The position numbers were made by a program, and so were the translations under genes. From Massilia putida (GTDB lineage Bacteria; Pseudomonadota; Gammaproteobacteria; Burkholderiales; Burkholderiaceae_D): a DNA stretch of 64,000 bases. The DNA lies in contig NZ_CP019037.1 in NCBI RefSeq assembly GCF_001941825.1, positions 372,001 to 436,000 on the forward strand. The letters run 5' to 3'. Under the pieces are notes generated by a model, which did not search any database, was not told the origin of the DNA, and saw only the letters and a program-made list of their open reading frames with translations. This document shows positions 11,384-28,841 of this stretch, piece by piece (the stretch's first letter is position 1; each line of letters opens with the position of its first letter).

Positions 11384-11423
11384 AAAACCGTTTATATCGT
11401 TTTAAACTATCAAAAAAATCGGT
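11384..11423. promoter_or_regulatory. LysR-type 40-bp operator motif, copy A
   Basis: It begins AAAACCGTTTATATCGTTTT and ends with a CTATCAA block, an A-tract and ATCGGT. Two other 40-bp copies occur at 20508-20547 and 28802-28841 in the same orientation. This copy lies between the divergent LysR and SMP-30 genes, 18 bp before the LysR start, as expected for an autoregulated LysR site. Confidence 0.75.
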
Positions 11424-11440
11424 AAAACAATGGAGACCTC

Positions 11441-12352
11441 ATGCGATTCAAACGACTCGATCTCAACCTGGTCGTGGCCCTGGACGCCCTGCTCGCGGAG
11501 CGCAGCGTCACCAGGGCGGGCCAGCGGCTGAACATCAGCCAGACCACCCTCAGCGACGCGCTCGGGCGGCTGCGCGACTATTTCAACGACGAGCTGCTGA
11601 TCCAGGTCGGCCGGAAGATGGTTCCGACACCGCTCGGCGAAAGCCTTGTCGGCCCCGCCCGCAACATGCTGCTGCAGGCGGAGGCGATGGTGAATACGAA
11701 GCCGAGTTTCGATCCCGGCGCGGCCGTCCGCTCGTTCACGCTGATGATGAGCGACTACATCAGCACCGTCCTGATCTCGAAGGTCGCCCCGGCGCTGAGC
11801 CGAATCGCGCCGCACGTTACGCTCGATGTATTGCCGCATTCGTCCGTACCGTGGGAGTCGCTCGCGCGCGGCGAGACCGACTTCCTGATCATGCCGCAGG
11901 CCTACCTGTCGTCCGACCACCCCAGCGAACCCTTGTTCGATGACAGCTTCGTCTGCATCGTCGCCACGGACAACGAACTGGTCGGCGACACGATCGACCT
12001 GGAGCAGTTCATGCGCATGGGCCATGTGCTCACGCGCTTCGGCAACAACCGCACGCCTTCCATCGACGAATGGTTCTTCAAGCGCTTCGGCAACGAGCGC
12101 CGGATCGAGATGATCACGATGGGCTTTTATGCCGTGCCCCAGGCCATCGTCGGCACCAACCGGATCGCGACCATCCAGCGCACGCTGGCGGACTATTACG
12201 CGACGATGCTGCCGATCCGCGTGGTCGACCACCTCTTCGAGCTGCCCACCATTTCCACAGGCCTGCAGTGGAACCGCTTTGCGGACAGCGATCCGGGCAT
12301 GGCGTGGATGCGTTCGGTGCTGCGCGAGCACAGCGCGACGATCCACGGTTGA
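11441..12352 (+). CDS. LysR family transcriptional regulator
   Basis: A 303-residue LysR regulator of the NodD/LinR-like branch, beginning with the characteristic MRFKRLDLNLVVALDALL. The winged HTH spans about residues 6-65, including SVTRAGQRLNISQTTLSDAL. The effector domain spans about 90-300. GGAG lies 6 nt before the ATG. It is divergent from the SMP-30/MCP unit and convergent with the MFS gene, with 2 bp between the stops. The 40-bp motif in its promoter recurs before the DUF1302-led unit and the 28737 monooxygenase unit, so I infer it is the master regulator of module 2. Confidence 0.9.
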   Translation: MRFKRLDLNLVVALDALLAERSVTRAGQRLNISQTTLSDALGRLRDYFNDELLIQVGRKMVPTPLGESLVGPARNMLLQAEAMVNTKPSFDPGAAVRSFTLMMSDYISTVLISKVAPALSRIAPHVTLDVLPHSSVPWESLARGETDFLIMPQAYLSSDHPSEPLFDDSFVCIVATDNELVGDTIDLEQFMRMGHVLTRFGNNRTPSIDEWFFKRFGNERRIEMITMGFYAVPQAIVGTNRIATIQRTLADYYATMLPIRVVDHLFELPTISTGLQWNRFADSDPGMAWMRSVLREHSATIHG

Positions 12353-12354
12353 CT

Positions 12355-13533
12355 TCAGTCCGCGGCGGGCGCCGCAGTCAACGGCGCCTGGCCTGCCCGG
12401 CTGCGCTTCATGCCGCGGCCCAGCAGGGCGAAACACGTCACGCCGATGGCGCCGAACCCGGCGACCGCCATGCCGAGGCCCGCGAAGCCGAAGCGCTGGG
12501 CGACGATGCCCGCGATCGCCGGGGCCAGCGCGGAACCGATCATCAGCATCGCGGGGGTCAACGCATTGGTGCGCCCGCTGGGATCCAGGCGCGCCGTCAG
12601 CCCGAACACGAAGGGATGGGCGAAGATGATCACGAACGCGTAGAAGCTCGCCGCCATGGCGTAGGGGGCGAAACTCGACGAACTGGAAATCGTGAACGCC
12701 AGTCCAACCTGTACCAACGTCGCGCCGATCGCCACGCCGACCTGCGGCAGGCGCTTCTGCAGGAAGCCGGAAAGCGGCGCAGGAAACAGGTTCACGATGC
12801 CGATTGCCGCCAGCAGGCTGTTTACATGGTCGAGCCCGAATCCACGCGCCATCCCGATGCGCTCGAGGAAGCTGAAAATGATCGACTGGTTCAGCGCCAG
12901 GCAGGCGACGCCCGTCACCAGCAGCCACACGGCCCGCGGAACGCGCACGGGCTCGGACGGCCGCGTGGCGCCGGCGCCGCTGGCCTGGTCGGCGGGAAAG
13001 CCAAGCGATGCCAGCGCCGCGCTCGCCATCAGCCCCGCCATCACGACGAACAGGCTGGGACTGCCGGCGGTGGCCATCAGTCGGGGCACGAGCGCATAGA
13101 ACACGACCGCAAATACGCCGAGCGCGGTGCCGGCCAGCGCGAACAGGCGGTGGGGATTGCCCGACCGTCCCATGGCACCGTGGGCCATCGACAGGCCGCA
13201 GCCGGTCCCGATCCCGGCGACGATGTGCAGGGCAACCAGTGCCGGCCATGCGGTCGCCCGTGACGCCATCAGCAGCCCCGCCGCCGACACCGCGAAGCCG
13301 CCGGCCGCGCAGAGGCGACGCGGAACGCGGTCGAAGCGTGGCGCGGACCAGACGCTGGCGCCGACCGCGCCAAGCAGGAACAGGGTGACGGTCAGGCCCG
13401 CGTGCTCGAAATCGAGTCCGTAATGCTGGACCAGGGTGCCGACCCAGAGCGGCAAGGCCACGAGGTCGATCAGGCCGGCCACATGGGCCAGCATCAGGGC
13501 GAATGTGCCACGAGTGGCTTGGTTGCTGCTCAT
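12355..13533 (-). CDS. MFS transporter
   Basis: A 392-residue, 12-TM major facilitator permease. The first helix is at about residues 10-30 and the motif-A-like loop reads SAPRFDRVPRRLCAAG. The start MSSNQATRG is supported by GGAG 7 nt upstream. It is the most downstream gene of the exporter block led by DUF1302, 25 bp after the MMPL gene. Its own ligand cannot be deduced. Uptake or efflux of a pathway compound is the simplest role. Confidence 0.85.
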   Translation of the reverse strand: MSSNQATRGTFALMLAHVAGLIDLVALPLWVGTLVQHYGLDFEHAGLTVTLFLLGAVGASVWSAPRFDRVPRRLCAAGGFAVSAAGLLMASRATAWPALVALHIVAGIGTGCGLSMAHGAMGRSGNPHRLFALAGTALGVFAVVFYALVPRLMATAGSPSLFVVMAGLMASAALASLGFPADQASGAGATRPSEPVRVPRAVWLLVTGVACLALNQSIIFSFLERIGMARGFGLDHVNSLLAAIGIVNLFPAPLSGFLQKRLPQVGVAIGATLVQVGLAFTISSSSSFAPYAMAASFYAFVIIFAHPFVFGLTARLDPSGRTNALTPAMLMIGSALAPAIAGIVAQRFGFAGLGMAVAGFGAIGVTCFALLGRGMKRSRAGQAPLTAAPAAD

Positions 13534-13558
13534 AGATTTCTCCAGTGGGTACTGCACA

Positions 13559-16009
13559 TCAATCCGGCATCGGCGTGCCGGCCGCGACCGGCGCACCGTC
13601 GGCCGTGCACGCCGGCGGCGCGTGCCGCGCGGCCATGCGCGGGCGCAGCAGGAAGTGTCCCAGCGCGGGCAGCAGGATCAGCGCGCCGAGCATGTTCAGC
13701 AGGAACATGAAGGCTAGCAGAATGCCCATGTCGGCCTGGAACTTGATGGGCGAGAAAGCCCATGTCGCAACACCGACGGCAAGCGTGACGCCGGTGAGCA
13801 TGACGACCTTGCCCGTGAACAGCAGGGCCCGGTAATAGGCTTCCGACAGGCTCATTCCGTCACGCATGCGCGCCAGCATGACGCTCAGGATGTAGAGCGC
13901 GTAGTCGATGCCGATGCCGACACCGAGCGCGATCACGGGCAGCGTGGCGACCTTGACACCGATGCCCAGGCACACCATCAATGCCTCGGCCAGCACCGAC
14001 GTCAGCATCAGCGGCAGGATCGCCACCACGACGGCGCGCCAGGAGCGGAAGGTGACGAAGCACAGGACGACGACGGCGCCATACACCAGGAACAGCATTT
14101 CGTACCACGAGCGCTTGACGACGATGTTCGTGGCGGCCTCGATACCCGCGCTGCCCGCGGCTTGCAGGAACTGGACGTCCGGGCTGTTGTTGGCCGCGGC
14201 GAAGCCCTCGACGTGCGCGACGACGCGCGCCAGGGTGTCGGCCCGGTGATCCTTCAGGTACACGTACAGGGTCAGGAGGCCGCAGGATTCGTTGTACAGG
14301 CCGCGCGGCGCGCCCGCCGTCACCGTATTGAGCATGTCCTGGTTCTTCACGAGCTCATACCACTTCGGGCTGGCCTCGTTCAGGCCACTCAGCATGCGCC
14401 GGTTCAACAACGCCAGCGTGTTGACCGACTCCACGCCGTCGAGCTGGCGCAATTCCCACTCGAGGGCGTCGACGCGCTTCAGCACGTCGTAGCTCGAGCA
14501 GCCGCCGTTGTCGGGCGTCTTGACCAGGACGGCGTAGACGTCGCTGCTGGCGCCGTAGTGCTGGTTCATGTATGCCACGTCGCGGTTGTAGCGCGAATCC
14601 GGACGGAGTTCCGGCGCACCCGGATCGAGGTCGCCGATCTTCAGATGGTGGCTCACCGCCAGGCCGGCAGCGGCGACGACGCAGGCGCACAGCACCGCCA
14701 GCGTCGCGTACGACTTGCGCGTAAACAGGTCGAGGACGCGCCACAGGCGCTCCTTGTCGGCGCCGGACGCCTCGGCTGCCTCGGCGCGCAGGCTGCGCTC
14801 GGCGGCGCGTTGGCTGACGCCGGTGTACGACAGCAGGATCGGCAACAGGATCAGGTTCGTGAAGATCAGCGCGGCAACCCCGATGCTGGCGGCGACCGCC
14901 AGTTCCTTGATGACCCGGATGTCGATCACCAGCAGGACGGCGAAGCCGACGGCGTCGGCCAGCAGTGCGGTCAGGCCGGCGAGGAACAGGCGCCGGAAGG
15001 TAAAGCGCGCCGCCACGAGCTTGTGGGCGCCGCGCCCGATGTCCTGCATGATGCCGTTCATCTTCTGCGCGCCGTGGCTCATCCCGATCGCGAAGATGAG
15101 GAACGGTACCAGCATCGAATAAGGGTCCAGCGCATAGCCCAGCGTGGGCAACAGCCCGAGCTGCCAGACGACGGCGATCAGCGAACTCACGACGACCAGC
15201 ACGGTCGAGCGCACGCAGCGGGTGAACCAGTAGACCATGGCGGCCGCGATCGCGATCGCGATGCCGAAGAACAGCAGCACCTGGCGCAGGCCGTCGATCA
15301 GGTCGCCGACGATCTTGGCGAAGCCCGTCACGTGGATGCGTACGCCCTGCGTCTCGTACCTGGCGCGGATCGTTTCCAGCGCGGCGGACAAGACCCGGTA
15401 GTCGAGCGCCCTGCCATGCGCGTCGACGGCCATCAGCGGCACGTAGATCACGCTGGAGCGGCCGTCGAGCGCCACGGTCTGGCCGATCTCGTTGGAGCGC
15501 GCGACGTTCGCTTCGAGCTTGCGCAGGCCGGGAGCGCTCCCGTCGTAGTCTTCGGGGATCACCGGACCGCCTTCGAGTCCTTCCTCCGTCACGCCGGTCC
15601 AGCGCGTGTTCGGCGTCCACAGGGACTTCATGAACGGCCGGTCGACACCCGGCAGCAGGAACACCTCGTCGTTGATCTTCGCCAGCGTCGCGAGGTAACG
15701 GGCGTCGTAGATAGTGCCCGCGGGGTTCTCGACCACGATGCGCACGGCGTTGCCGAGACCGCTCAACTCCTTCTGGTATTTCAGGTAGTTGGCGATGTAC
15801 GGGTGACCGGTCGGAATGGTTTTTTCGAAGCTCGCGTTCAGGCGCAGCTTGCTGGCCTGGAAACCGAGGATGCCGGTGATCACGGCGCACAGCACGATGA
15901 CGACCAGGCGATGGTTGAACAACAGGCGTTCGAGTAACGAACCGGACTGCGGGTCGAAACGCGCCAGATCGGTCGGCGCGTTGCGGTCGGTAGAGGTTGT
16001 CGGCATCAT
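13559..16009 (-). CDS. RND superfamily (MMPL) transporter
   Basis: An 816-residue RND permease with two MMPL repeats. TM1 is at about 22-40, a large periplasmic loop follows to about 225, then a cluster of five TMs; the second half repeats this arrangement. Helix motifs such as FLIFAIGMSHGAQKMNG and ALGVGIGIDYALYILSV (GxxxD type) mark the proton-relay region. The ATG overlaps the stop of the YCF48 gene by 4 bp (ATGA). Its operon has YCF48, DUF1329 and DUF1302 genes upstream, a set often seen together in Burkholderiales and Pseudomonas catabolic loci. Transport of a hydrophobic substrate across the envelope is inferred. Confidence 0.9.
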   Translation of the reverse strand: MMPTTSTDRNAPTDLARFDPQSGSLLERLLFNHRLVVIVLCAVITGILGFQASKLRLNASFEKTIPTGHPYIANYLKYQKELSGLGNAVRIVVENPAGTIYDARYLATLAKINDEVFLLPGVDRPFMKSLWTPNTRWTGVTEEGLEGGPVIPEDYDGSAPGLRKLEANVARSNEIGQTVALDGRSSVIYVPLMAVDAHGRALDYRVLSAALETIRARYETQGVRIHVTGFAKIVGDLIDGLRQVLLFFGIAIAIAAAMVYWFTRCVRSTVLVVVSSLIAVVWQLGLLPTLGYALDPYSMLVPFLIFAIGMSHGAQKMNGIMQDIGRGAHKLVAARFTFRRLFLAGLTALLADAVGFAVLLVIDIRVIKELAVAASIGVAALIFTNLILLPILLSYTGVSQRAAERSLRAEAAEASGADKERLWRVLDLFTRKSYATLAVLCACVVAAAGLAVSHHLKIGDLDPGAPELRPDSRYNRDVAYMNQHYGASSDVYAVLVKTPDNGGCSSYDVLKRVDALEWELRQLDGVESVNTLALLNRRMLSGLNEASPKWYELVKNQDMLNTVTAGAPRGLYNESCGLLTLYVYLKDHRADTLARVVAHVEGFAAANNSPDVQFLQAAGSAGIEAATNIVVKRSWYEMLFLVYGAVVVLCFVTFRSWRAVVVAILPLMLTSVLAEALMVCLGIGVKVATLPVIALGVGIGIDYALYILSVMLARMRDGMSLSEAYYRALLFTGKVVMLTGVTLAVGVATWAFSPIKFQADMGILLAFMFLLNMLGALILLPALGHFLLRPRMAARHAPPACTADGAPVAAGTPMPD

Positions 16010-17106
16010 TTTGCGGCCATGGAAACGGTGGGAGCGGCGGATGGCGCGACGGCCGGCAGGCGCAGCACGCCAAAGACACTGGCGGCGATTATGCTGCCGT
16101 CGGCGTCGACCAGCAGGTCGTTCAGCGGCGGCAGGGCCGGAACGTTCAAGGGGACCAGCGCGGTGGCGCCGGGTCCGGCGGCGAGCACCTGGCCCGCCTG
16201 GTTGACCGCCACGATGCCGTCGGCGCCACGGACCCCGATGGCGGTGATCGCCGCCGGCGTGGGCGATTCGAGCTTGTTCCAGCTCGCGCCGCGGTCGCGG
16301 GAGCGATATGCGTTGCCGCGCAGGCCGCCCACCACGACTTCGTCCGCGCCGGGGAGGCACAGGGCGAAGAAGCTCCCCTTGTAGCCCGTGTCGAGGCGTT
16401 CGAAATGCAGCCCGCCGTCCGTGGCGCGCAGCAGCAGTCCCTGCTCGCCCGCGATGTAGACGACGTCGCCCGTCGATCGCACGGCATACAGGTGGTTGCC
16501 CTTCGGGTTGTCGAGCCGGCCCATCAGCGACGTCCACGTCTTGCCGCCGTCGCGGGTACGGAACGCCAGGTTGTAGGCGCCGACGACGATCCCGTTGAGC
16601 GCGTCGCCGAAATGCAGCGCCAGGAAGGGCTTGTCCGGTCCGTCCCGGACCAGGCGCTGGGCGTCGGCCAGGTCGCGCGCCGCACGGGGCGCCCCGGTCT
16701 CGGCCTGGGCGTCGCGCAGCGCGAGTTGCGCCGCCTGCACGCCGTCCAGCTGGCGCGACCAGGTCTCGCCGCCGTCTGCGCTGTGCAGGACCACCCCGTA
16801 GTGTCCGGTGGCCCATCCCTGCCGTGGGGTTGGGAACTGGACCGCCGTCAGCGTGACGCTGGTCGGCACCCTGGCCTGGCGCCAGGACTTGCCGCCGTCG
16901 TCGGACAGCGCGACGACGCCGTGCTCGCCTACCGCCACCAGACGCTTGCCGGCGTGCGCCAGCCCCGCCAGGAAGACCCGGCCGGGCTGCCGCACCATCG
17001 TCGCGGGCCGCGTCAACGGATCCGCGACCGGGACCGCCGCGTGGGCGGCACCGGCCGCCAGCGTGCCGGCCACCGCCAGCATCGAAACAACATACTTGAA
17101 CTTCAT
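16006..17106 (-). CDS. YCF48/BNR-repeat periplasmic propeller protein
   Basis: A 366-residue secreted beta-propeller of the photosystem-II-stability-factor-like (YCF48, BNR) family. The signal peptide is MKFKYVVSMLAVAGTLAAG, ending AHA before AVPVADP. BNR-type Asp boxes recur, for example DGGKSWRQ, DGGETWSRQ, DGGKTWTSL and DRGASWNKL. GGAG precedes the chosen ATG by about 7 nt; an in-frame ATG 21 nt upstream is less suitable for a signal peptide. It is coupled to the MMPL gene by an overlap and probably acts as a periplasmic partner of that transporter. Confidence 0.88.
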   Translation of the reverse strand: MKFKYVVSMLAVAGTLAAGAAHAAVPVADPLTRPATMVRQPGRVFLAGLAHAGKRLVAVGEHGVVALSDDGGKSWRQARVPTSVTLTAVQFPTPRQGWATGHYGVVLHSADGGETWSRQLDGVQAAQLALRDAQAETGAPRAARDLADAQRLVRDGPDKPFLALHFGDALNGIVVGAYNLAFRTRDGGKTWTSLMGRLDNPKGNHLYAVRSTGDVVYIAGEQGLLLRATDGGLHFERLDTGYKGSFFALCLPGADEVVVGGLRGNAYRSRDRGASWNKLESPTPAAITAIGVRGADGIVAVNQAGQVLAAGPGATALVPLNVPALPPLNDLLVDADGSIIAASVFGVLRLPAVAPSAAPTVSMAAK

Positions 17107-17140
17107 GATTCGCTCCGCGATAACCACCGTGCCGACATGC

Positions 17141-18493
17141 TCAGCGCTGACCTTCCCCAGCCATCGCTTCCGGCGTGAACACCGTATTGCCGTAGCGAGG
17201 CATGATCTTGTACTGCTCGGCCTTCTCGTTCAGCACGCCGTTCACGTACCACGCACCCGAAACCAGGTCGTAGAAGCCGAATTCCTGCGGCGGCGCCGTG
17301 GCCGGCAGGTCGGGCATCACGATCGGGTTCGCGAACATGGTCTTCCACAGCTGGCCGTTGGCATCCCAGCGGTCGCCCAGTACCGCCGCCCAGGTATCCT
17401 CGTCCAGGTAGTAGCGGCCCTTGGGCGCCTGGTGGCGCTTGCCCGGCGCCAGGTTGGCCTCGACCACCCACACGCGGTGCAGCTCCCAGCGGACGTAGTC
17501 CGGGTTCAGGTGGTGCTCGCCGATCAGGTCCGCGATCTTCGGCTGCAGCATCTTGTTGCTGTTGTAGGGGATGTAGATCTCCTTCTTGCCGACCAGCTTC
17601 CAGTCGAACCGGTCCAATCGGCCGTTGAAGACGTCCACCTCGTCGAACGACATGATCCCGGCCGTCGCCGGGGTCGGCGTGTCGCAGCAGGCGATCGGCA
17701 GCTTGCGTACGCGGCGCTGGCCGGTCAGGTAGACCCATGCCTGGGTGCGCTCGGGGTTCAGGTTCTCGCGACCGACGATCGCTTCGCCGGCGCGGATCGG
17801 CGGGCCGGCATTGACGAGGCGGATCAGCCAGTATTCGCCGTTGTAGTTGCCCGCGCTGCCGTCCTTGAAGTAGTACGGCATCTGGAAGTCGCCGCGGCCG
17901 TCGACGGTCGTGACCTGCTTGCCGTCGGCGGTCACCTGGATGCCGCGGAAGTCCGCGTGCCAGTCGCTGCCGCGCCAGCGCAGCAGGTGGTTCCACATCG
18001 CTTCGGCGCCGTTCTTCGGGATCGGGAACGGAACGCCGCCATAGACGCCTTCCGGTACCATGCCGTTCAGCTTGCCGCTGGTGGCGTTCTTGAACGTGTT
18101 GTCGTACACCCACTGCGGAGCGGCCGCCGTGCGGTGGGTCGGATACACGTCGAGGCGGAACGTGTCCGGGTGCTTCTTCAGCATGGCCTTGACGCCGTCG
18201 GTCAGCTTGTCCGCGTACTGGGCCGCGTTCTTAGCCGTGATGGTGTACAGCGGCTTTTCGTTCGCGAACGGGTCGCCGCGCTTGCCGCCGTTGGCGAAGC
18301 CGGGAATGGCCTTCGTATAGCCGCCGTCCCAGGCGGGGATGGTGCCGTCCTTGTTGCCGGCACGCTCGCCGCCGAGCGGGGTCAGCGTGGTCTTGAGCTG
18401 CGCCGCCTCATCGGGCATGGCCGCGTGGGCGGCTGCGCCCAGCACCAGCAGGCTGCACAGGGTCGCCAGCGCGGTCTTGTGTGGTCGAATCAT
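17141..18493 (-). CDS. DUF1329 periplasmic/outer-membrane-associated protein
   Basis: A 450-residue DUF1329 protein with a signal peptide (MIRPHKTALATLCSLLVLGA, cleaved after AHA). Family signatures include the N-terminal LTPLGGERAGNKDGTIPAWDGG, split here as LTPLGGERAGNKDG and TIPAWDGG, and the acidic PEDTW-like region DEDTWAAVLGDRWDA. DUF1329 resembles LolA/LolB folds and may carry lipophilic molecules. It is 16 bp from the DUF1302 gene and 34 bp from the YCF48 gene on the same strand, so all should be cotranscribed. Molecular function is unproven. Confidence 0.9.
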   Translation of the reverse strand: MIRPHKTALATLCSLLVLGAAAHAAMPDEAAQLKTTLTPLGGERAGNKDGTIPAWDGGYTKAIPGFANGGKRGDPFANEKPLYTITAKNAAQYADKLTDGVKAMLKKHPDTFRLDVYPTHRTAAAPQWVYDNTFKNATSGKLNGMVPEGVYGGVPFPIPKNGAEAMWNHLLRWRGSDWHADFRGIQVTADGKQVTTVDGRGDFQMPYYFKDGSAGNYNGEYWLIRLVNAGPPIRAGEAIVGRENLNPERTQAWVYLTGQRRVRKLPIACCDTPTPATAGIMSFDEVDVFNGRLDRFDWKLVGKKEIYIPYNSNKMLQPKIADLIGEHHLNPDYVRWELHRVWVVEANLAPGKRHQAPKGRYYLDEDTWAAVLGDRWDANGQLWKTMFANPIVMPDLPATAPPQEFGFYDLVSGAWYVNGVLNEKAEQYKIMPRYGNTVFTPEAMAGEGQR

Positions 18494-20353: not shown

Positions 20354-20357
20354 GGCG

Positions 20358-20426: not shown

Positions 20427-20507
20427 GACGATGTCTCCTTGTTGGTCTTTTGGCTCCGTGTGGGAGTCCTTTTGTTATCCCATGATAGACATGAGACACA
20501 CGCATTG

Positions 20508-20547
20508 AAAACCGTTTGTTCCGGTTTGAACTATCAAGAAAATCGGT
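20508..20547. promoter_or_regulatory. LysR-type 40-bp operator motif, copy B
   Basis: It starts AAAACCGTTTGTTCCGGTTT and ends with CTATCAAGAAAATCGGT, matching copy A over nearly its whole length. It lies between the ABM-domain gene and the 22-codon leader frame, 82 bp before the latter, and should control the leftward DUF1302-led operon. Confidence 0.75.
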
Positions 20548-20565
20548 ACATCAATCGATCACTGT

Positions 20566-20865
20566 TCAAAAGGCATTGACGACCGTTTCCAGATGCGTCA
20601 CGACCGGGAGCCCGTCGAAGCAATGACCGACCAGGGCGCGCCACGCCTGGAAGTCTTCGCTCGACCGGAAATGCACGGTGTGGTCCTCCAGGGATTCCCA
20701 ACGCACCAGCAAGCGGTATGCGCGCCGGTTTTCGATCCCGCGCTGCAAGACCATGGAGAGGCAGCCGCGCGCGCGCCGGAACAGCGGCGCCGCCTGCGCC
20801 ACGCCCGCTTCGAATACGGCTTCCATGCCGGGTTTTACGAGGATGTCTGCACTTTCCAATACCAT
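20566..20865 (-). CDS. Antibiotic biosynthesis monooxygenase (ABM)-like protein
   Basis: A 99-residue ABM-fold (dimeric alpha+beta barrel) protein. It begins MVLESADILVKPGMEAVFEA, followed by the RRARGCLSMVLQRGIENRR strand region and YRLLVRWESLEDHTVHF, which is typical of ABM/YgiN proteins. AGGAGGG lies 4 nt before the ATG. It is the last gene of the leftward catabolic unit and lies 80 bp after the alpha/beta hydrolase gene. YgiN-type members oxidise quinols, and others only bind hydrophobic ligands; here a role on a quinol intermediate is plausible. Confidence 0.82.
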   Translation of the reverse strand: MVLESADILVKPGMEAVFEAGVAQAAPLFRRARGCLSMVLQRGIENRRAYRLLVRWESLEDHTVHFRSSEDFQAWRALVGHCFDGLPVVTHLETVVNAF

Positions 20866-20944
20866 ATTCCCTCCTGTTAAACGGCCGCACCAGCGGTCGC
20901 ACGGTAAAAGTCGAGCGCATTTGGGCGCCGCTTATCGTCGGCGC

Positions 20945-22126
20945 TCATCGGGACTCTGCGCCGACGCGGCCGCCCAGGTTTTCCGCGATCCAGTCCGCGA
21001 TGAACGCGCCGGCGTTCGCCATGTTGTCGAGGCTGACATGGTGGACGCCGCCTTCGCGATCCGTGAAGATCTTCAGCTCGCGCTTCGGGCTATTCACCAG
21101 CTGGTCATAGGTCTGGTACGCGTATTCCACCGGGATCTGGCGGTCCTGCTCGCCGTGCGTGACGAGGAACGGCACCTGCACGCGGTCCAGGATCCCGTTC
21201 AGGTGTATCTGCTCGGCCTTGGCCATGAACGCGTCCATGTCGTTCGCACCCCATACCCAGCGCACGTGTTCCCAGTAATGCGGCACAGGGTTCTCGCCCT
21301 CTCGCTTGAGACGACGCTTCTGCATCTCGCCCCAGTTGTGGTTGGCGCCCCACACGGCGCCAAGTGCGAAACGCGGCTCGAAGGCGACCGCGCGCGGCGT
21401 GTAGTAGCCGCCCAGCGACACACCCATCATGCCGATGCGCCCGGGGTCGACGTCGGCGCGCGTCTCGAGGTAGTCGACCACCTTGCCCGCCCAGGCCTCG
21501 CTGTTCACGAGCGCCGGCATGGCGTGCAGGCGCAGCGCCTCGCCGGTGCCCGGCTGGTCGAGGTACAGGCAGGCGATGCCGCGCTGGGTCAACTGCTTCG
21601 TGATCTGCGTGCGTGCCAGCATTTCCTTCGTGCTGTCCAGGCCATTCACGCACAGCATGACCGGCTGGCGTGCGTCCGGCGCGACGCCCTCGGCATGGAA
21701 CAGGATCCCCGCAAGGTTGGCGTCGCCGTACGGGATCTCGACGCGCTCGCAACGTACGCCCATCAGTTCCTGCGCTTCCTGGAATAGCGCGACGTAGCGC
21801 TGGTACAGCACCTTGCGCGGCGCGAAGCCGTGCGCCTGCATGCGTTCCGCGCAGGCGAAATACTGGACCGCGCGGTCGAGCTTTTCGCCGGCGCTGTAGC
21901 GGCGCCCGAGCGCCTTGTCTTCCTGCGCCAGGTCGACGAGCTTGTCGCCCATGGCGACCCAGGCCTGGAAGAAGGCTTCGGTACCGGGATCGTCGCCCTG
22001 CGTGGCGAGGTCGCGCAGCGGGCGGCAGACTTCGTCGATCTCGCCGATCCTGCCACCGCTTTCCAGCGCCGCGTTGACGGCCAGGCTCCAGACGTAATTC
22101 GTGGGAAAATATTGGAACATCGACAT
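20945..22126 (-). CDS. Alpha/beta hydrolase of the FrsA/DHPON-hydrolase type
   Basis: A 393-residue alpha/beta hydrolase with an N-terminal helical cap (about 1-125), as in 2,6-dihydroxypseudooxynicotine hydrolase and FrsA-like proteins. The nucleophile elbow is GMMGVSLGGYY, the acid is probably Asp in VTHGEQDRQIP, and the base is His in EGGVHHVSLDN. Characterised relatives cleave C-C bonds of 1,3-diketones. It starts 12 bp after the epimerase gene ends and is in the same transcript. In this pathway it may cleave a beta-diketone product of ring opening (inference). Confidence 0.85.
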   Translation of the reverse strand: MSMFQYFPTNYVWSLAVNAALESGGRIGEIDEVCRPLRDLATQGDDPGTEAFFQAWVAMGDKLVDLAQEDKALGRRYSAGEKLDRAVQYFACAERMQAHGFAPRKVLYQRYVALFQEAQELMGVRCERVEIPYGDANLAGILFHAEGVAPDARQPVMLCVNGLDSTKEMLARTQITKQLTQRGIACLYLDQPGTGEALRLHAMPALVNSEAWAGKVVDYLETRADVDPGRIGMMGVSLGGYYTPRAVAFEPRFALGAVWGANHNWGEMQKRRLKREGENPVPHYWEHVRWVWGANDMDAFMAKAEQIHLNGILDRVQVPFLVTHGEQDRQIPVEYAYQTYDQLVNSPKRELKIFTDREGGVHHVSLDNMANAGAFIADWIAENLGGRVGAESR

Positions 22127-22138
22127 GTTTGATTCTTC

Positions 22139-23083
22139 CTATTGAGTTCGTTGCAATGCGTTGCGGATCAGTTCCCCGATCGAGCCGTCGTGACGGAAGC
22201 CAAGCCCCTCGGCGGTACGGGCGTCCAGTGGCGGCTGGCTTGCGAACGCGGCCTCCAGCTCGGGGTTCGGCGCGTACGTGACGAGACCGCGGCGGTCGGC
22301 GCCATACATCTCCGCCAGGCCGTCCACCAGTTCCGCGATCGTCAGGCGCAGCACCGGCAGCGTGAATTCCCGGCGGCCCAGGACCTGCCCGGGCGCCAGC
22401 GCGGCTGCGTGGAGGAAGTTGTCGACGCAGCAGGCGACCGACATCCACCATGCCACGCCCTGCGGCGACACCGGGCAGGTGAAGCGTTCGCCGGCGGACA
22501 GGCGCCAGAAGATGTCGCTCATGAACGAAGAAAGCAGGCCGTTCGGCACCGGGGGACGCGCCACGATGCCGGGCAGGCGCAGGATGCGGCCGTCGACCCA
22601 GCCGCGCCGGCTGTAGTCCTTCACGAGGATCTCGCCGGCCAGCTTGTGCGCGCCATAGCTCAGCTGCGGTGCGAGCGGCGTCGCATCATCGACCTTCGCC
22701 CCCATCCGGCCATACACGGCGATGGTGCTGGCGAACACGAACACCGGTGCCTGCACCTGGCGCCGGCTACGCTCGAGCAACGCCAGGGTGCCCTGCAGGT
22801 TCACCTCGAGCCCGAGCTCGAAGTTGCGCTCGGCCGCGCCGCCGGGGACGCTGGCCAGGTGGAAGATCACGTCGTACGGCTGGGCGAACAGGTCGTCGAG
22901 CATCCCTTCGGCGGCGATGCTGCCTTCGAACCGGCGCACGCGCTGGTCCTTCGCCTGGGCGTCGAAGGCAATGTCCATCAGGCTCAGGGACTCGACGGCC
23001 CGGCCGCCGGCGCCCGTCGCCAGCAGACGGTCGACGAGGGCCTTGCCGACGAAGCCGTTGGCGCCGGTCACGAGGACTCTCAT
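22139..23083 (-). CDS. NAD-dependent epimerase/dehydratase (extended SDR, DenD-like)
   Basis: A 314-residue extended short-chain dehydrogenase. The Rossmann motif is VLVTGANGFVGKALVD at residues 3-18. The catalytic YxxxK is SYGAHKLAGE, with Ser in FASTIAVYGR. The arrangement resembles D-erythronate dehydrogenase and related sugar-acid SDRs. Its ATG overlaps the upstream FAH stop by 4 bp, so the genes are translationally coupled. It probably oxidises a hydroxyl in a pathway intermediate. The exact substrate cannot be told. Confidence 0.87.
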   Translation of the reverse strand: MRVLVTGANGFVGKALVDRLLATGAGGRAVESLSLMDIAFDAQAKDQRVRRFEGSIAAEGMLDDLFAQPYDVIFHLASVPGGAAERNFELGLEVNLQGTLALLERSRRQVQAPVFVFASTIAVYGRMGAKVDDATPLAPQLSYGAHKLAGEILVKDYSRRGWVDGRILRLPGIVARPPVPNGLLSSFMSDIFWRLSAGERFTCPVSPQGVAWWMSVACCVDNFLHAAALAPGQVLGRREFTLPVLRLTIAELVDGLAEMYGADRRGLVTYAPNPELEAAFASQPPLDARTAEGLGFRHDGSIGELIRNALQRTQ

Positions 23084-24072
23084 TGGACCTCCTTGCGCGC
23101 GGCGGGCACGAAGCGGTGGTCGATGGCGCCGAACACGGACTGGCCGGCGCCGTCGAGCATGTCGAAACGCAGGCGCTCCCCGTAACGCAGGAATGGGGTC
23201 GACGCCTCGCCGTTGGCGATCGTCTCGAGCGCACGGCGTTCGGCCAGGCAAGCAGATCCGACCTTCCCGACATCCTTGTTCGAGAACGTACCCGTCCCGA
23301 TCACGGTGCCGGCGCCGAGGCGGCGGTTGTACGCGATGTGGGCGACGATGTCGGCGAAGCTGAAGTCCATCTCGCGCCCGTTCGGATTGCCGAACCATTC
23401 GCCATTGCGCTCGACACGCAAGTCGAGATGGACGCGGCCATCGCGCCAGGCATCGCCGAGTTCGTCCGGCGTGACGGCCACGGGCGCGAACACGGTGGCG
23501 GGCTTGGCGAGGATGAAGCCGAAGCCCATGCCCAGTTCGCGGAACAGGTGGGTGCGCATGCTGACGTCGTTGAACAGCATCAGCAGCTTGACGTGGCCCA
23601 GCGCGTCCTCGGCCCTGGTGCCGGACGGCACGTCGTCCAGCACGACAGCGACCTCGCCCTCGAAGTCGGCGTTGTCGGCTTCGCTCGGGAACGGGTAGTC
23701 GTCGCAGGGCCCGTAGAAATCGTCGGCCTGGCGCTGGATCAGGATCGGGACCGCCTTGTCCTTCTTGACGGTCAGGTTGTAGGCGCGTTCCATGATGTCG
23801 CCGTGATTCAAAAACGCCGATGCGTCGATGAACTGATAGGCCCTTGGGAACGGCGCGGCGACCGCGCGCGGATCGAAGCGGAAGGACTCGGGAGCCTCGC
23901 CGCGGTTGAGCTGCGCATAGATGTCCTGCAGAAGGGGCTCGACCTCGTCCCAGCGGTCGATCGCCTGCTGCATGGTCGACACGCACGCGGGCTTGCATGC
24001 CGTCTGCAGCTCGCGCGATACGACCAGCAGGCGGCCGTCGCGGCTGCCGTCTCTCAGGGTCGCCAGTTTCAT
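23080..24072 (-). CDS. Fumarylacetoacetate hydrolase family protein (long form)
   Basis: A 330-residue FAH-family enzyme, close in length to bacterial fumarylacetoacetases of the FahA2 type. It begins MKLATLRDGSRDGRLLVVS, typical for that group. Metal ligands are visible in NADFEGEVAVVLDD (Glu pair) and LLMLFNDVSMR (Asp). The C-terminal region has FLRYGERLRFDML. AAGGAG stands 8 nt before the ATG. It precedes the epimerase gene with an ATGA overlap. It probably hydrolyses a fumaryl- or maleyl-pyruvate/acetoacetate-like compound. Confidence 0.88.
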   Translation of the reverse strand: MKLATLRDGSRDGRLLVVSRELQTACKPACVSTMQQAIDRWDEVEPLLQDIYAQLNRGEAPESFRFDPRAVAAPFPRAYQFIDASAFLNHGDIMERAYNLTVKKDKAVPILIQRQADDFYGPCDDYPFPSEADNADFEGEVAVVLDDVPSGTRAEDALGHVKLLMLFNDVSMRTHLFRELGMGFGFILAKPATVFAPVAVTPDELGDAWRDGRVHLDLRVERNGEWFGNPNGREMDFSFADIVAHIAYNRRLGAGTVIGTGTFSNKDVGKVGSACLAERRALETIANGEASTPFLRYGERLRFDMLDGAGQSVFGAIDHRFVPAARKEVQ

Positions 24073-24155: not shown

Positions 24156-24162
24156 GTCCGGC

Positions 24163-24921
24163 TCACTGGAGCGGCCGGCCGCCGTCGACCGGGATCACGG
24201 CGCCGGTGGTGAACGTCAGGTGCGTGGCCACGGCCACCACCGCCAGCGCCACTTCGCGCGGATCGGCCAGGCGTTTCAACGGCGTGCGGGCGGCCTGCTC
24301 GTCGCGCCAGCCATGGTCCATGGATTTGACGAATTCCGTGTCCGACAGGCCCGGCGAGACCGACACCACGCGGATCGCCGGCGCCAGCGCGCGCGCCAGC
24401 GATCTGGTCATGTTGTCCACGGCCGCCTTGGACGCGCAATACATCACGTTGCTGCCCATCGCGGTGACGGCGGCGATCGACGACACGTTCACGACCAGGC
24501 CGTTCCCGTTCGCCTCCAGAAGCGCGCGCAGTGCGCGCACGGCGGCGAACGGCCCACGCACGTTGGTGGACAGAATGCGCTCGATCAACCCGTCGTCCAG
24601 CGCATCGAGGTCGTGGTGCGGCACGAAGCTCGTCGTGCCGGCGCAGTTGACGAGGATGTCGCAGCGGCCGTAGCGCCGCCCGATCTCGTCCGCCAGGCCG
24701 GCCAGGGCCGCGCTGTCGGTGACCGGCGCGGCGAGCGCCGCATGCGGCAGCGCCGCCACCGGCAGCTGCGACGCCAGTGTCGCAGCCTTGTCGGCCGAGC
24801 TGTTGTAGCCCACCACGACGGCCGCGCCCTGGGCGGCCAGTTCGCGGCAGATGGCGGCGCCGATGCCGCCGGCGCCGCCGGTCACCAGCGCCACCCTGCC
24901 TTGCAACGCGTGCGTGCTCAT
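24163..24921 (-). CDS. Short-chain dehydrogenase/reductase (SDR)
   Basis: A 252-residue classical SDR. It has the [12 protein letters not shown] nucleotide-binding motif at about residues 15-26, the NCAG motif, catalytic Ser in [10 protein letters not shown] and YxxxK in [11 protein letters not shown], and a C-terminal [10 protein letters not shown]. The ATG overlaps the HisD stop by 4 bp. It probably reduces or oxidises a ketone/alcohol pair in module 2. FabG and many catabolic dehydrogenases share this architecture, so specificity is open. Confidence 0.9.
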
Positions 24922-26201
24922 GCCGTCTTCTTCAGGCGGCGCACGCGGATGTCCGCCTGCTCCTTGTGGCCCGAGAAGTGCTCCAGCGCGCACAGGCGCG
25001 AGCACACTTCGCCGATCTGTACCGACGCCTCGTCGGTCAGGATGCGCTGGTAGGTGTGCGTCTTGATGAATTTGCCCACCCACAGGCCGCCCGTGTAGCG
25101 GCCGGCACCCATCGTCGGCAGCGTATGGTTGGTTCCGATCACCTTGTCGCCATAGGAGACGTTCGTGCGGTGGCCGAGGAACAGCCCGCCGTAGCTCGTC
25201 ATGCGGTCGAGGAACCAGTCGGGATCTTCCGTCATCACCTGCACGTGCTCGGAGCAGATGCGCTCGGACTCCTGCAGCATCTCCTCGTTGGTATCGCACA
25301 GGATGATCTCGCCGTAGTCACGCCACGAGGCGCTGGCCACCGGCGCCGTGTCCAGGCGCGCCAGCACTTGTTCGATCGCGGCCGGCAATTCCTCAGCGAT
25401 CTTGCGGCTCGTCGTCACGCAGTACGCGGGCGATGTCGGGCCGTGCTCGGCCTGGCCGAGCAGGTCCACCGCGACCAGTTCGGCGTCGACGGTATCGTCG
25501 CAGATGACCATGGTCTCGGTCGGGCCGGCGAACAGGTCGATGCCGACGCGGCCGAACAGCTGGCGCTTGGCTTCGGCCACGTACGCGTTACCCGGGCCGA
25601 CGATCATGTCGACCGGCGCGATGTTCTCGGTACCGATCGCCATCGCCGCCACGCCCTGCACCCCGCCCATCACATAGATCTCGTCGGCGCCGGCCAGCGC
25701 CATCGCGGCGACGATTTCCGGCGACGGCTTGCCGTCGAACGGCGGCGCGCAGGCGATCACGCGCTTCACGCCGGCGACCTTCGCGGTCAGCACGCTCATG
25801 TGCGCCGACGCCAGCAACGGATATTTACCGCCCGGGATGTAGCAGCCGACGGAATTGACGGGGATGTTCTTGTGCCCGAGGACGACGCCCGGCAAGGTCT
25901 CGACTTCGACGTCGCGCAGCGACAGCAGCTGCACCTGCGCGAAGCGGCGAATCTGGGCCTGGGCAAACTTTATGTCTTCCAGAGCCTGCGGGCTAAGCGA
26001 ATCGATGCAGCCCTGGATCTCTTCCTGCGACAGGCGCAGCGAGGGCGGATTCCACTTGTCGAATTTTTCCGAATACTCGCGTACGGCCTGCTCGCCGCGC
26101 GCCTCGATGTCGGCGATGATGTTTTCGACGGTCGTGCGCACCTGCGCGTTGATTTCCGCCTTGGCCTCGACCGACTTGCCCTTCTTCAGATACTTGATCA
26201 T
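24918..26201 (-). CDS. Histidinol dehydrogenase-family enzyme (catabolic HisD paralogue)
   Basis: A 427-residue HisD-family protein. The Zn-site motifs are present: [14 protein letters not shown] (Gln/His), the SEHVQV Glu-His pair that would act as catalytic base, and [38 protein letters not shown] is the usual NAD-binding block, in two parts. No other histidine-biosynthesis gene is nearby, and it is coupled by overlap to an SDR. It is therefore more likely a catabolic alcohol dehydrogenase, like HpsN for dihydroxypropanesulfonate, than true HisD. Confidence 0.88.
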
Positions 26202-26282
26202 GGTGTCACCTGTGATGTGTTTTAAGTGAATCCTCGATGTGAGGATGTCGCTGGTATGTGGCTGGTATTCGTTGGCGCGCAG

Positions 26283-26651
26283 TCAGTCGTCCGGACCGCG
26301 CCGGTCGAGGAAAATCTCGCCCTGCTCCACCCGCACCGGCAGTGCGTCGAGCGCCGCGCCGAGACAGGGGCCATGGGTGCAGACCCCATCCTCGATCCCG
26401 AAGCGCGCCGCGTGCGCATAGCACATGATCTGCGTCCCGTCGTGCGTCAGGAACCGGTGCCGCATGTATTCCAGGGGACGGCCGTTGTGCGGGCAACTGT
26501 TCCGGTAGGCATACACGCGCTCGCCCCGGCGGATGACGAAGACCGTATCCTCGCCCGCACCGCCTGGATCGAAGCCGCGCGCGGTGCCGTCCGGGACCTG
26601 GTCGAGGCGGCACAGCGGTTGTGGCGCGTCGGGCAGGGGCGCCGCACTCAA
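26283..26651 (-). CDS. Rieske [2Fe-2S] ferredoxin-type protein
   Basis: A 122-residue stand-alone Rieske protein with the cluster ligands Cys53-Pro-His55 (NSCPHNGRP) and Cys77-x2-His80 (IMCYAHAARF). I chose a TTG start because its bases overlap the VOC gene stop in the 4-base TTGA pattern of coupled genes, and family similarity starts soon after; no ATG or GTG fits. Its size matches a ferredoxin component, not an oxygenase subunit. No Rieske oxygenase alpha subunit or reductase gene lies nearby, so its electron acceptor is unknown. Confidence 0.83.
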   Translation of the reverse strand: MSAAPLPDAPQPLCRLDQVPDGTARGFDPGGAGEDTVFVIRRGERVYAYRNSCPHNGRPLEYMRHRFLTHDGTQIMCYAHAARFGIEDGVCTHGPCLGAALDALPVRVEQGEIFLDRRGPDD

Positions 26652-27583
26652 TGGTTGCCGCCGCTCGGAAACCACGGCTCGCGCAGGCTGAACAGGAACA
26701 CCTGCGACGTGTCCTCGGCCGCCGTGCACTCGCGCGGGGTCCAGCTGTCGTCATGGGTGTCCATGTCGGCGTCGTACTCCAGCGTGCCGCCCAGCGGCGA
26801 GTTGAAGTACCAGAACCAGTTGGAGCCGTAGATGTGGCGGCCCGGCCCCCAGAAGCTCTTGTAACCCTTGGCGGCGAAAGCAGCGCCGGCGCGCAGAAGT
26901 TCGTGCACGCTGCCCATGTGAAAGGTGAAGTGGTTGATACCTTTCATGAAAGCGGGCGCCTGGATCAGGAACAGCGTATGGTGGTCGGCGCAGCCGGCCG
27001 GGCGCAGGAACGGTCCGGTCCCGGTGAAGCGGTCCGACACACGGAAGCCCAGGCGCTCGACATAGAAACGCTCGGCGACAGCGACGTCGGGCACGAACAG
27101 CACCACGTGCGACAGGCTGCGCGGCACCGGCAGCGCGGCATCGGGATCGGCCGCGACCTGGTTGACGGGACGTTGGGCTGGACGGCCAGGCACGTTGACC
27201 GGCACGGCCGGCGCCTCGTACGGACGGCGTACGCTGACCTGGAAGCCAACCGCCAGGCCGATATCGTCGACGGCATGGATCGATCCGTCGGCGTCCTCGC
27301 GGACGTCGCGGTCCTTCGACAGTTCGGCCTTGATCTGCGCAAGCGTCGCGCGGTCCTTCACACCGTAGATCACTGCGCGGATGTTGGGCGATTTTCCGAT
27401 CGGCGGCGGAAGGGCCGGGTCGCTGTCGTGGCGTACGACCACCGACGTGCCGTCGAGTGCTTCGAATACGCCATGCGTGTCCGACGCCGCGACCTCGACC
27501 AGGCCGTAGTCCTTCAGGCATTGCTTGCAGGCGGCGACATCGTCGACACCGAACACCAGGGTATCGGGTCCGAGGATATTCAT
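26648..27583 (-). CDS. VOC-family extradiol dioxygenase
   Basis: A 311-residue two-domain VOC protein. The Fe(II) ligand set is present in domain 2: His159 (SLSHVVLFV), His218 (INHFTFHMG) and Glu269 (TLEYDADMD). The ATG is preceded by AAGGAG at 8 nt. It is located directly downstream of a salicylate-hydroxylase-like gene, so the pair should hydroxylate and then cleave a ring. The downstream neighbour is the Rieske ferredoxin, which could reactivate an oxidised Fe(II) dioxygenase as XylT-type ferredoxins do (inference; XylT itself is a plant-type ferredoxin). Confidence 0.87.
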   Translation of the reverse strand: MNILGPDTLVFGVDDVAACKQCLKDYGLVEVAASDTHGVFEALDGTSVVVRHDSDPALPPPIGKSPNIRAVIYGVKDRATLAQIKAELSKDRDVREDADGSIHAVDDIGLAVGFQVSVRRPYEAPAVPVNVPGRPAQRPVNQVAADPDAALPVPRSLSHVVLFVPDVAVAERFYVERLGFRVSDRFTGTGPFLRPAGCADHHTLFLIQAPAFMKGINHFTFHMGSVHELLRAGAAFAAKGYKSFWGPGRHIYGSNWFWYFNSPLGGTLEYDADMDTHDDSWTPRECTAAEDTSQVFLFSLREPWFPSGGNH

Positions 27584-27612
27584 TGGATTGGCTCCTTGTT
27601 TGGGTCTTGTGA

Positions 27613-28737
27613 TCAGATCGGGCCGGCAAGGGCGGCCTGGGAATCGCGCATCAGTTGCGAGAACGCCTGCCGCGAGTCCGGCGAGCGTTCCAGCTGGCCT
27701 AGCTTCACCGAGTTTTCGACGATCAGCCGGGCACGTGGAAGGCGGCGCTGCATGTAAGCCTCGAGTGCGGTCGCCAGGGATGCCGGATGGCGCGCCAGTT
27801 CCTCGGCCAGCACCAGCGCGTCCTCGACGGCCGCGCCGGCACCGGAGGCCAGGTGCGGCGTGGTCGCATGCACGGCGTCCCCGAGCAGCACCACGCGCCC
27901 CTGATACCAGGGCGACGTGATGAGGAGCGTTTCCAGCGGGCGGTAAAGGATGCGGGAGTCCGCGTTCAGGCCGTCGCGGATCGCGCCGACCGGACCGCCG
28001 AAACCAGCCAGCTCGGTCGCCAGGCGCTGCGGCCACTCCTTGGGATCGATGAACGTGTTGTCCGGCACGTGCAAGGTAAAGAACAAGTACATCTCGTCCT
28101 GCGAAACCGGGTTGACGCCGGCTTTCACGCGCGGGCCCATGAACATGTGTGGACGGTCAATCTCCGCAGGGCGCCGGACCAGGGCGCGCCAGCAACCCTG
28201 CCCCGTGAATTCGGGCTTCGGTGCGTGCGGGAACACGGCCTGACGCACCTTGGAGCTGAGACCGTCGGCCCCGATCACGAGGTCGTAACGAGAACGCGAG
28301 CCATCGGTGAACGTCACGTCAACGCCGTCCTCGTCCTGCTCGATGCCGACGAAGGTGACGCCCAGGCGCACCGACGTGCCGGATGCGAGTGTCGCCTGGG
28401 ACAGGATTCTGGCCAGGACCGGACGCAGGATGCCACCGCCACCCGGGACATCGATACCCGCCAGCCGGGGCGTCGGCAATTCGGTGAGGAGCGTTCCATC
28501 CGCATCGCACAGGCGCACGCCGTCTGCGCAAAAGCCCTGGTCCATGACCTGGTCGATGATGCCAAGCGTGGAGAAAGCGCGCAGCGTCGGTCCGCTGATC
28601 GTGATGCCAGCGCCGTACACCTGCCAGTCGGAGTCGAGCTCAACCAGGTCGACCTGGTCGCCCCGTTTGCGCAGGCTGATGGCGGCGGCCATGCCGCCGA
28701 TGCCACCGCCGATGATCAATACTCGTTGGCTCTTCAT
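27613..28737 (-). CDS. FAD-dependent monooxygenase (salicylate hydroxylase-like)
   Basis: A 374-residue group A flavin monooxygenase. It has a GxGxxG motif (VLIIGGGIGGMAAAISL, residues 6-22), a DG motif (LVIGADGLSSKVRQAVF) and a GD motif (VVLLGDAVHATTPHLASGAG). Length and the missing C-terminal domain favour salicylate or 6-hydroxynicotinate-type hydroxylases over MhpA. It is the first gene of a ten-gene leftward unit ending at the ABM gene, with the third 40-bp operator 65 bp upstream of its start. It probably carries out the first oxidation of the pathway. Confidence 0.9.
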   Translation of the reverse strand: MKSQRVLIIGGGIGGMAAAISLRKRGDQVDLVELDSDWQVYGAGITISGPTLRAFSTLGIIDQVMDQGFCADGVRLCDADGTLLTELPTPRLAGIDVPGGGGILRPVLARILSQATLASGTSVRLGVTFVGIEQDEDGVDVTFTDGSRSRYDLVIGADGLSSKVRQAVFPHAPKPEFTGQGCWRALVRRPAEIDRPHMFMGPRVKAGVNPVSQDEMYLFFTLHVPDNTFIDPKEWPQRLATELAGFGGPVGAIRDGLNADSRILYRPLETLLITSPWYQGRVVLLGDAVHATTPHLASGAGAAVEDALVLAEELARHPASLATALEAYMQRRLPRARLIVENSVKLGQLERSPDSRQAFSQLMRDSQAALAGPI

Positions 28738-28801
28738 GTCTCCATGCTCCGTTTGTTGTTAGATACATGCGAGAGATCATAGAGAGTCGTCGGGCTTTTT
28801 A

Positions 28802-28841
28802 AAAACCGTTTATAACGGTTCGAGGCATCAAGAAATCCGGT
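28802..28841. promoter_or_regulatory. LysR-type 40-bp operator motif, copy C
   Basis: It starts AAAACCGTTTATAACGGTTC, containing a perfect AACCGTT-TAT-AACGGTT dyad, and ends with CATCAAGAAATCCGGT. It lies 65 bp before the monooxygenase start. A TATGAT -10-like hexamer on the minus strand lies between them. Confidence 0.75.

Follow-up and report, generated by a model that had tools for sequence, protein, structure and literature searches.

Why would promoters that lead a chemoreceptor gene, a set of envelope transport genes and a ring-cleavage cluster carry one and the same 40-bp element? The question arises from a stretch of 64,000 nucleotides of Massilia putida (contig NZ_CP019037.1, positions 372,001 to 436,000; the window, below), which lies on contig C2 (457 kb) of a 7.52-Mb genome in three contigs, and in which three copies of the element, here called operators A, B, and C, precede three units read leftward. 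A sequence-only reading of the window had assigned these copies to the LysR-type gene at 11441 and had proposed that this one regulator ties together chemotaxis, lactone hydrolysis, envelope transport, and ring degradation. The proposed common regulon is supported in silico, both by the specificity of the element and by its presence at orthologous promoters. Judging from sequence comparison, we consider it very likely that A, B, and C are operators for the product of 11441, a LysR-type activator of the NodD clade, which would co-control the three leftward units (Table 1).

All three copies are present where they had been reported, beginning at 11384, 20508, and 28802, and on recount the distances to the leftward start codons are indeed 129, 82, and 65 bp for A, B, and C. 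The adjacency of copy A to the LysR gene also holds: 17 bp separate the operator from the LysR start codon, and the SMP-30 and methyl-accepting chemotaxis protein (MCP) genes follow on its leftward side. The shared orientation stands as well, although the minus strand, which is the direction of the promoters, is the more natural reading direction. Pairwise, the copies are identical at 34/40 (A–B), 30/40 (A–C), and 31/40 (B–C) positions. Outside the 40-mers, identity in bins of 10 bases is mostly 0–5; the exceptions are A–B just upstream (7/10), A–B just downstream (6/10), and the bin that holds the −10 (6, 8, and 5). A 38-bp pattern with N at the variable columns finds, at up to three mismatches, only A, B, and C in the window (expected number 0.00 from 100 shuffles) and only three places in the whole genome (reversed control, 0). 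Thus, the long pattern has no extra match in its own genome, and the element is not a motif scattered over many unrelated loci.

Read on the minus strand, each operator consists of a 15-bp box 1, a 7-bp spacer, a 15-bp box 2, and a terminal TTT. The boxes, whose boundaries were initially drawn by eye, are tandem 15-mers of the class A-Y-C-N9-G-R-T (one is A-A-C) set 22 bp apart; in all three window operators box 1 is ACC-N9-GAT and box 2 is A[AC]C-N9-GGT, and the box 2 region of operator C also contains a palindrome, AACCGTT-ATA-AACGGTT. A −10-like hexamer, TATSAT, stands at offset 60 from the first base of each operator, i.e. 20 bp past the 40-mer. At this offset the three window sites agree with TATAAT at 5.0 of 6 positions on average, and at every other of 70 offsets at no more than 3.0. 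For eight operators, which are not independent because the pairs 30A/61A and 30B/61B are close homologs (39/40 and 34/40), the mean match is 4.62 at offset 60 and nowhere else above 2.75, and none of 5000 shuffles reaches the −10 score of either set. As at sites of LysR-type transcriptional regulators, we find two spaced dyad-like boxes, the downstream one abutting the −35 region in register with the −10; a downstream box that abuts the −35 region is the arrangement of classical LysR activation. In the 15-mer register, positions 2 and 14 of the six window half-sites are C/A, A/G, or C/G, and the T-N11-A form is thus absent from that register of this AT-rich DNA; this motif of LysR-type boxes is described as variable in the available text of PMC10100970. 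Neither the tandem boxes nor the −10 at fixed spacing had been part of the sequence-only reading, whose operator assignment is refined by them.

The element also occurs at orthologous promoters. Orthologs of the 11441 protein are found in Massilia sp. PDC64 (75% identity) and Telluria antibiotica (73%), both of which keep much of the module with a changed gene order. One run in PDC64 carries, on one strand, genes for DUF1302, DUF1329, MMPL, hydrolase, VOC, and monooxygenase proteins; the other carries SMP-30, FAA hydrolase, epimerase, and MCP genes and is divergent from the LysR gene. T. antibiotica has the same two runs. In both species related sites lie between the LysR and SMP-30 genes and before the DUF1302 gene, with orientation unchanged, and offset 60 again carries a −10-like hexamer, which is TAAGAT at the A sites and TATSAT at the B sites. 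A matrix built without the promoter B sites of the relatives places them, in stretches of 60–80 kb, next in rank below the A site and the matches that overlap it. Thus, the operator is present at both the LysR/SMP-30 and the DUF1302 promoters of both relatives; each of the three species has a copy next to its LysR gene, and sites A and B are retained between species amid differing flanks.

PDC64 has a further, nod-box-like site before an MFS gene, with 22-bp spacing and TATCGT at offset 60, which was pointed out by the rhizobial nod-box matrix described below. The MFS gene is the last of unit B in the window and has its own operator-like site in PDC64. Similarly, the FAA hydrolase and epimerase genes follow SMP-30 in the relatives and belong to unit C in the window, and the hydrolase, dioxygenase, and monooxygenase genes follow MMPL in the DUF1302 run of the relatives and again belong to unit C in the window. 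That genes sit in different runs in different species, yet still under such a site, argues for selection keeping one regulon. Within the stretches searched in the two relatives, an MFS homolog was found in PDC64 only, and a homolog of the histidinol-dehydrogenase-family (HisD-like) enzyme in neither.

At the scale of the genus the element is equally confined. A pattern drawn from seven sites gives, at up to two mismatches in 62 genomes, seven matches in three genomes, all at this module (control, 0); the PDC64 MFS site is not among them. Those three operator-bearing genomes, and no others of the 62, have a LysR protein of at least 74% identity. Another 12 have LysR relatives of 38–49% only (E ≤ 1e-60) and no such operator. 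In a scan of the family (392 genomes drawn evenly from the larger group), the same three genomes alone exceed 49% among nine with E ≤ 1e-85. Inspection by eye of the upstream stretches of 16 genus loci revealed no such operator (30 loci were printed, 12 in unturned orientation were excluded, and the other 18 include the window gene and one ortholog), and among the within-locus repeats of seven relatives, of which up to the five best pairs of each locus were considered, none fell in the LysR-divergent regions. Strict scoring of A-Y-C-N9-G-R-T pairs in the divergent regions of 24 loci reached p ≤ 0.003 only in two orthologs and three rhizobial NodD loci.

The layout of the boxes has a counterpart in the rhizobial nod box. 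Our reference was a set of eight rhizobial nodA upstream regions, in each of which two nod-box-type 15-mers 22 bp apart are visible; in R. etli and S. fredii the second half served to place the box, the first being taken 22 bp upstream of it, and the first box of S. fredii is weaker. Compared with the eight rhizobial nod boxes, the seven operators have a mean identity of 19.66/40 at register 0, and the other 24 registers give 8.0–14.5 identities, except for 17.3 at +9. Under a matrix of eight distinct rhizobial boxes, which remain of 17 sequences (eight from nodA promoters and nine that adjoin NodD) once repeats are removed, A and B take the top two ranks, in this order, among 127,916 positions in the window. 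Composition-matched permutation gives p values of 4e-5 for A, 2e-5 for B, and 0.003 for C, and of 8e-5 to 5e-4 for five operators of the relatives. Conversely, a matrix of the seven operators places the nod box first in five and second in three of the eight nodA upstream stretches (1716 positions). In layout and register the operators thus resemble real nod boxes, operator C more weakly. The nod-box palindrome is given as ATC-N9-GAT in the available text of PMC5596368, and none of the six window half-sites is an exact copy; we therefore reject classification as a true nod box and, because of this and because the reversed nod-box matrix scores alike, call the element nod-box-like.

The rhizobial matrix also finds a LysR-adjacent site at the top of the locus in 7 of 21 loci (L036, L037, L038, L054, L059, L060, and L062). 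The score is clearly high only in Duganella (L060, 32.1) and in a member of the Rhodobacteraceae (L062, 28.8); the remaining five may be chance because intergenic DNA is AT-rich. The match in Duganella lactea (L060 9935–9977) is flanked by a LysR gene of the NodD clade and a cluster led by DUF1302 and has no −10 at offset 60.

The 11441 protein is itself related to NodD. NodD-annotated genes are among its best plasmid matches (~42%), and it is 40.1% and 42.5% identical to two rhizobial NodD proteins. A tree of 45 rows joins the 11441 protein, rhizobial NodD, and the LysR proteins of other module-bearing genomes in a 39-row clade (100/100), within which the 11441 protein has its own 10-row subclade (100/99) outside the five-row NodD subclade, with no resolved order of subclades. 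In the helix-turn-helix, three members of the 11441 group have SQTT where nine other aligned proteins have SQ[PS]A, at a position that we take to be the recognition helix. A pairing of this helix with base 4 of the boxes is only a lead, because two sites depart from it, one in Duganella, which combines ATCG in box 1 with SQSA, and the other before the PDC64 MFS gene, which has ATCC in box 2. Adjacency, co-occurrence, and family together suggest the 11441 protein as the binder of A, B, and C.

A number of results weigh against this assignment or narrow what it can draw upon. Operator C has no orthologous promoter in PDC64 or T. antibiotica. The seven genus-wide matches have zero mismatches by construction because the pattern was drawn from those seven sites, and only the absence elsewhere is informative; co-occurrence, in turn, cannot separate the regulator from the module because ortholog and module are always found together. 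A shorter, 24-bp core pattern at up to three mismatches finds, besides A, B, and C, one chromosomal place in the same genome (3 mismatches), where its reversed control also has one match, and it gives one extra match in T. antibiotica (3 mismatches). In the strict two-box test the more distant carriers of the module are not significant, and a spacing of 20 ties with 22 in the two orthologous A regions. Even among nodA promoters, a spacing of 22 scored alone is best in two of eight, and other spacings, mostly 31 or 40, equal or beat it in the other six because these promoters hold further ATC/GAT steps. Under the nod-box matrix, operator C ranks only 50 of 127,916, the five operators of the relatives rank 2 to 8 in their stretches and not first, and the third-ranked match in the window, at 49960, is in coding DNA. 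The reversed nod-box matrix has a best score of 14.7 in the window, between A (14.8) and B (14.5), and the rhizobial matrix alone is therefore rejected as proof. Finally, the genome holds two further close LysR relatives (42% and 37%), one of them near near-canonical nod boxes.

Because of these two relatives, cross-regulation or another binder is possible, and a first alternative is that one or both of them (C3:963985 or C3:917844; C3 denotes chromosomal positions) bind the operators, with the 11441 protein minor or accessory. C3:963985 does lie near nod boxes and a second monooxygenase/dioxygenase/hydrolase cluster. We nevertheless regard this as unlikely: the 12 genus genomes that have such a relative but no 11441 ortholog lack the operator, the SQTT of the 11441 group is not shared by the nine others, and only 17 bp lie between operator A and the 11441 start codon. 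It is still less probable that the 40-bp element has nothing to do with LysR binding and serves in a promoter or leader, for instance as a site of another sigma factor or regulator. Its fixed position relative to the −10 is what one would see for a promoter element, but both boxes match the nod-box layout in register, the LysR gene has a copy next to it in each of the three species, and the pattern, unlike a sigma-factor element, has no further match in the 62 genomes at up to two mismatches.

It is very improbable, in our judgment, that the copies are DNA duplications, i.e. mobile or recombination footprints that have no regulatory role and are alike from ancestry only. A transposase-like remnant does lie 158 bp beyond site C, and gene order does vary between species. 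Against this, likeness is largely limited to the 40-mer and the −10, sites A and B are kept across species while the flanks differ, and every copy is in promoter position ahead of a unit of the pathway. Thus, control of the three units by the 11441 protein remains the reading that we prefer.

If the 11441 protein does act at these sites, it might do so as follows. The upstream box would be the recognition site, and the downstream box abuts the −35; the box spacing of 22 bp is about two helical turns, and in the absence of inducer a tetramer of the regulator would occupy both boxes. The inducer would be a polyphenol of plant origin, with a flavonoid or an early product of breakdown as the most likely candidates. 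Upon inducer binding, the regulator would shift on the downstream box, the bending of DNA would relax, and RNA polymerase would be recruited to the three leftward promoters. This would turn on the chemoreceptor and the SMP-30 lactonase from A, the envelope transport proteins from B, and from C a ring-cleavage pathway of monooxygenase, extradiol dioxygenase, and C–C hydrolase. The position of site A just before the LysR gene also predicts autoregulation.

The enzymes of unit C point in the same direction. The best solved relative of its alpha/beta hydrolase is 2,6-dihydroxypseudooxynicotine hydrolase, and its VOC protein shares 62% identity with a protein that its source calls naringenin degradation protein FdeC; the rest of the 120 matches listed for the VOC protein bear generic names. 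On this basis we lean toward a flavonoid or related polyphenol as both substrate and inducer, which is the least certain step of the proposal. Unit C is led by the monooxygenase gene, as had been claimed, but we count nine frames in it and not ten.

Table 1. Operators, −10-like hexamers, and genes of the three units in the window

Feature	Coordinates	Strand	Remarks
Operator A, 40 bp	11384..11423	-	Box 1 11409-11423, box 2 11387-11401
−10-like TATGAT, promoter A	11358..11363	-	
LysR-type regulator, 303 aa	11441..12352	+	Proposed binder of A, B, C; Pfam HTH_1, LysR_substrate
SMP-30/gluconolactonase-like protein, unit A	10239..11255	-	PF08450
Methyl-accepting chemotaxis protein, unit A	8594..10153	-	PF00015, PF00672
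Operator B, 40 bp	20508..20547	-	Box 1 20533-20547, box 2 20511-20525; precedes DUF1302-led unit
−10-like TATCAT, promoter B	20482..20487	-	
Short leader frame, 22 codons, unit B	20358..20426	-	From sequence; putative coding
DUF1302 protein, unit B	18510..20189	-	PF06980
DUF1329 protein, unit B	17141..18493	-	PF07044
YCF48/BNR-repeat protein, unit B	16006..17118, start approximate	-	PF14870
MMPL/RND transporter, unit B	13559..15990, start approximate	-	PF03176; 83-85% identity in two relatives
MFS transporter, end of unit B	12355..13545, start approximate	-	PF07690
Operator C, 40 bp	28802..28841	-	Box 1 28827-28841, box 2 28805-28819; precedes monooxygenase-led unit
−10-like TATGAT, promoter C	28776..28781	-	
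FAD-dependent monooxygenase, unit C	27613..28737	-	PF01494; NF005313
VOC-family extradiol-dioxygenase-like protein, FdeC-like, unit C	26648..27613, start approximate	-	
Rieske [2Fe-2S] protein, unit C	26283..26669, start approximate	-	PF00355
Histidinol-dehydrogenase-family (HisD-like) enzyme, unit C	24918..26201	-	PF00815
Short-chain dehydrogenase (SDR), unit C	24163..24915, start approximate	-	
Fumarylacetoacetate-hydrolase-family (FAA hydrolase) enzyme, unit C	23080..24072	-	PF01557
NAD-dependent epimerase family, unit C	22139..23077, start approximate	-	Best model D-erythronate dehydrogenase, below cut-off
Alpha/beta hydrolase like 2,6-dihydroxypseudooxynicotine C-C hydrolase, unit C	20945..22126	-	
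103-aa frame ending unit C	20564..20872	-	Antibiotic-monooxygenase-like by eye; without Pfam match

Two features at the edges of these units deserve mention. The short leader frame between operator B and DUF1302 has a good ribosome site, and T. antibiotica has a short frame at the corresponding place before DUF1302, but its sequence differs. The transposase-like remnant beyond operator C (28999–29706) is IS1595-like by eye and apparently frameshifted; a Pfam search with its first frame gave no match, and it may mark the edge of a rearranged module.

The same genome contains what looks like a second circuit of this kind. The chromosomal LysR gene C3:963985 (37%, NodD clade) lies near two nod-box matches, C3:962464 (0 mismatches) and C3:957330 (2 mismatches), a pair that spans G000:C3:957330–962497 (L146 7330–7363 and 12464–12497). 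The pair occurs in four genomes (G000, G030, G062, and G070) and any match in 6 of 62 (control, 0); the three other matches among the 62, in G074, G081, and G030:C26, have 3 mismatches each. The nod box at C3:962464 stands before an MFS gene, and its offset 60 carries no −10-like hexamer. For the one at C3:957330 the hexamer at this offset is TACCAT (by eye); the box stands before a frame to which Pfam gave no match, and downstream of that frame are homologs of the C–C hydrolase (62%), the VOC protein (59%), and the monooxygenase (57%). The genome thus seems to hold near-canonical nod boxes on the chromosome and a diverged form, with G at base 4 and SQTT, at three promoters.

The window also has a fourth nod-box-like element, at 37386–37425 on the minus strand (ATT-N9-GAT, 22 bp, ATC-N9-GGC), with TACCAT at 37360–37365, again offset 60. 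It precedes an MFS gene (about 35883–37361) that is divergent from a second LysR gene (about 37420–38322), whose product falls outside the 39-row NodD clade. In a T. antibiotica stretch (L088, G061:C10), the best nod-box-matrix match (14.2), at about 37068–37110 on the minus strand, lies directly before a LysR gene (37128–38021) whose product is 36% identical to this second LysR of the window.

In general, the module offers a concrete regulon with located boxes and −10s, in which chemotaxis, envelope transport, and ring cleavage would be placed under one NodD-clade sensor outside nodulation. The presence of diverged and near-canonical versions in one genome allows direct comparison for the evolution of nod box and recognition helix. 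In practical terms, the two circuits suggest themselves as new candidate sensors of the flavonoid type whose operators are defined. More tentatively, and with less confidence than doubt, one may suppose that the nod box is one form of an older operator class, through which soil bacteria that are not symbionts use regulators of the NodD clade to sense plant polyphenols, to eat them and swim to them, and that symbiosis borrowed the circuit. On that view the diverged and the near-canonical version would form a natural switch of specificity that separates two polyphenol circuits running in parallel.

How, then, does the system compare with those already described? Our literature search found no paper that joins FdeR with the nod box, Massilia with the nod box, or DUF1302, DUF1329, and LysR, which is weak evidence because most subscription papers lie outside such a search. 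With the nod box and NodD, the window shares two dyad-like 15-mers at 22-bp spacing, mostly with TTT after box 2 (in the eight nodA promoters), a site that adjoins the divergent regulator gene, and a regulator in a common 100/100 clade at 40.1–42.5% identity. The distance from site to start codon is 9–11 bp in nine Mesorhizobium/Aminobacter loci versus 17 bp in the window. The systems differ in base 4 of the box, which is G in the window and C in rhizobia (T in some second boxes), and in their targets, which here are catabolic, transport, and chemotaxis genes.

With the FdeR/fde system for naringenin degradation in Herbaspirillum seropedicae, the likeness is in the combination of a LysR activator with a flavonoid ring-cleavage operon: in the window a NodD-like LysR-type gene lies near genes for a monooxygenase (by family match only) and an FdeC-type dioxygenase. 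This comparison is by family, by description, and by the one FdeC-named protein (62%), not by FdeR/fde sequences. FdeR is linked to a 2017 paper whose title contains “NodD-like protein” (PMC8481569, in its available text), and the accessible part of PMC10799723 gives its footprint as 60 bp between fdeR and fdeA, with boxes of the LysR type over the −35. One divergent promoter is described there, in contrast to three promoters with one operator, one of them before a chemoreceptor gene, in the window. The ifc isoflavone cluster of Variovorax, which the available text of PMC11069340 relates to fde, shares by its description the trio of FAD monooxygenase, FdeC-type glyoxalase-fold protein, and alpha/beta hydrolase like 2,6-dihydroxypseudooxynicotine (DHPON) hydrolase. 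In that account ifc has cupin proteins where the window has Rieske, HisD-like, and FAA hydrolase genes, and the word LysR is absent from the main text. The system is of a known kind, NodD/FdeR-type control of flavonoid catabolism, and a variant of it, set apart by the three promoters, the diverged nod-box-like operator, and the chemoreceptor in the regulon.

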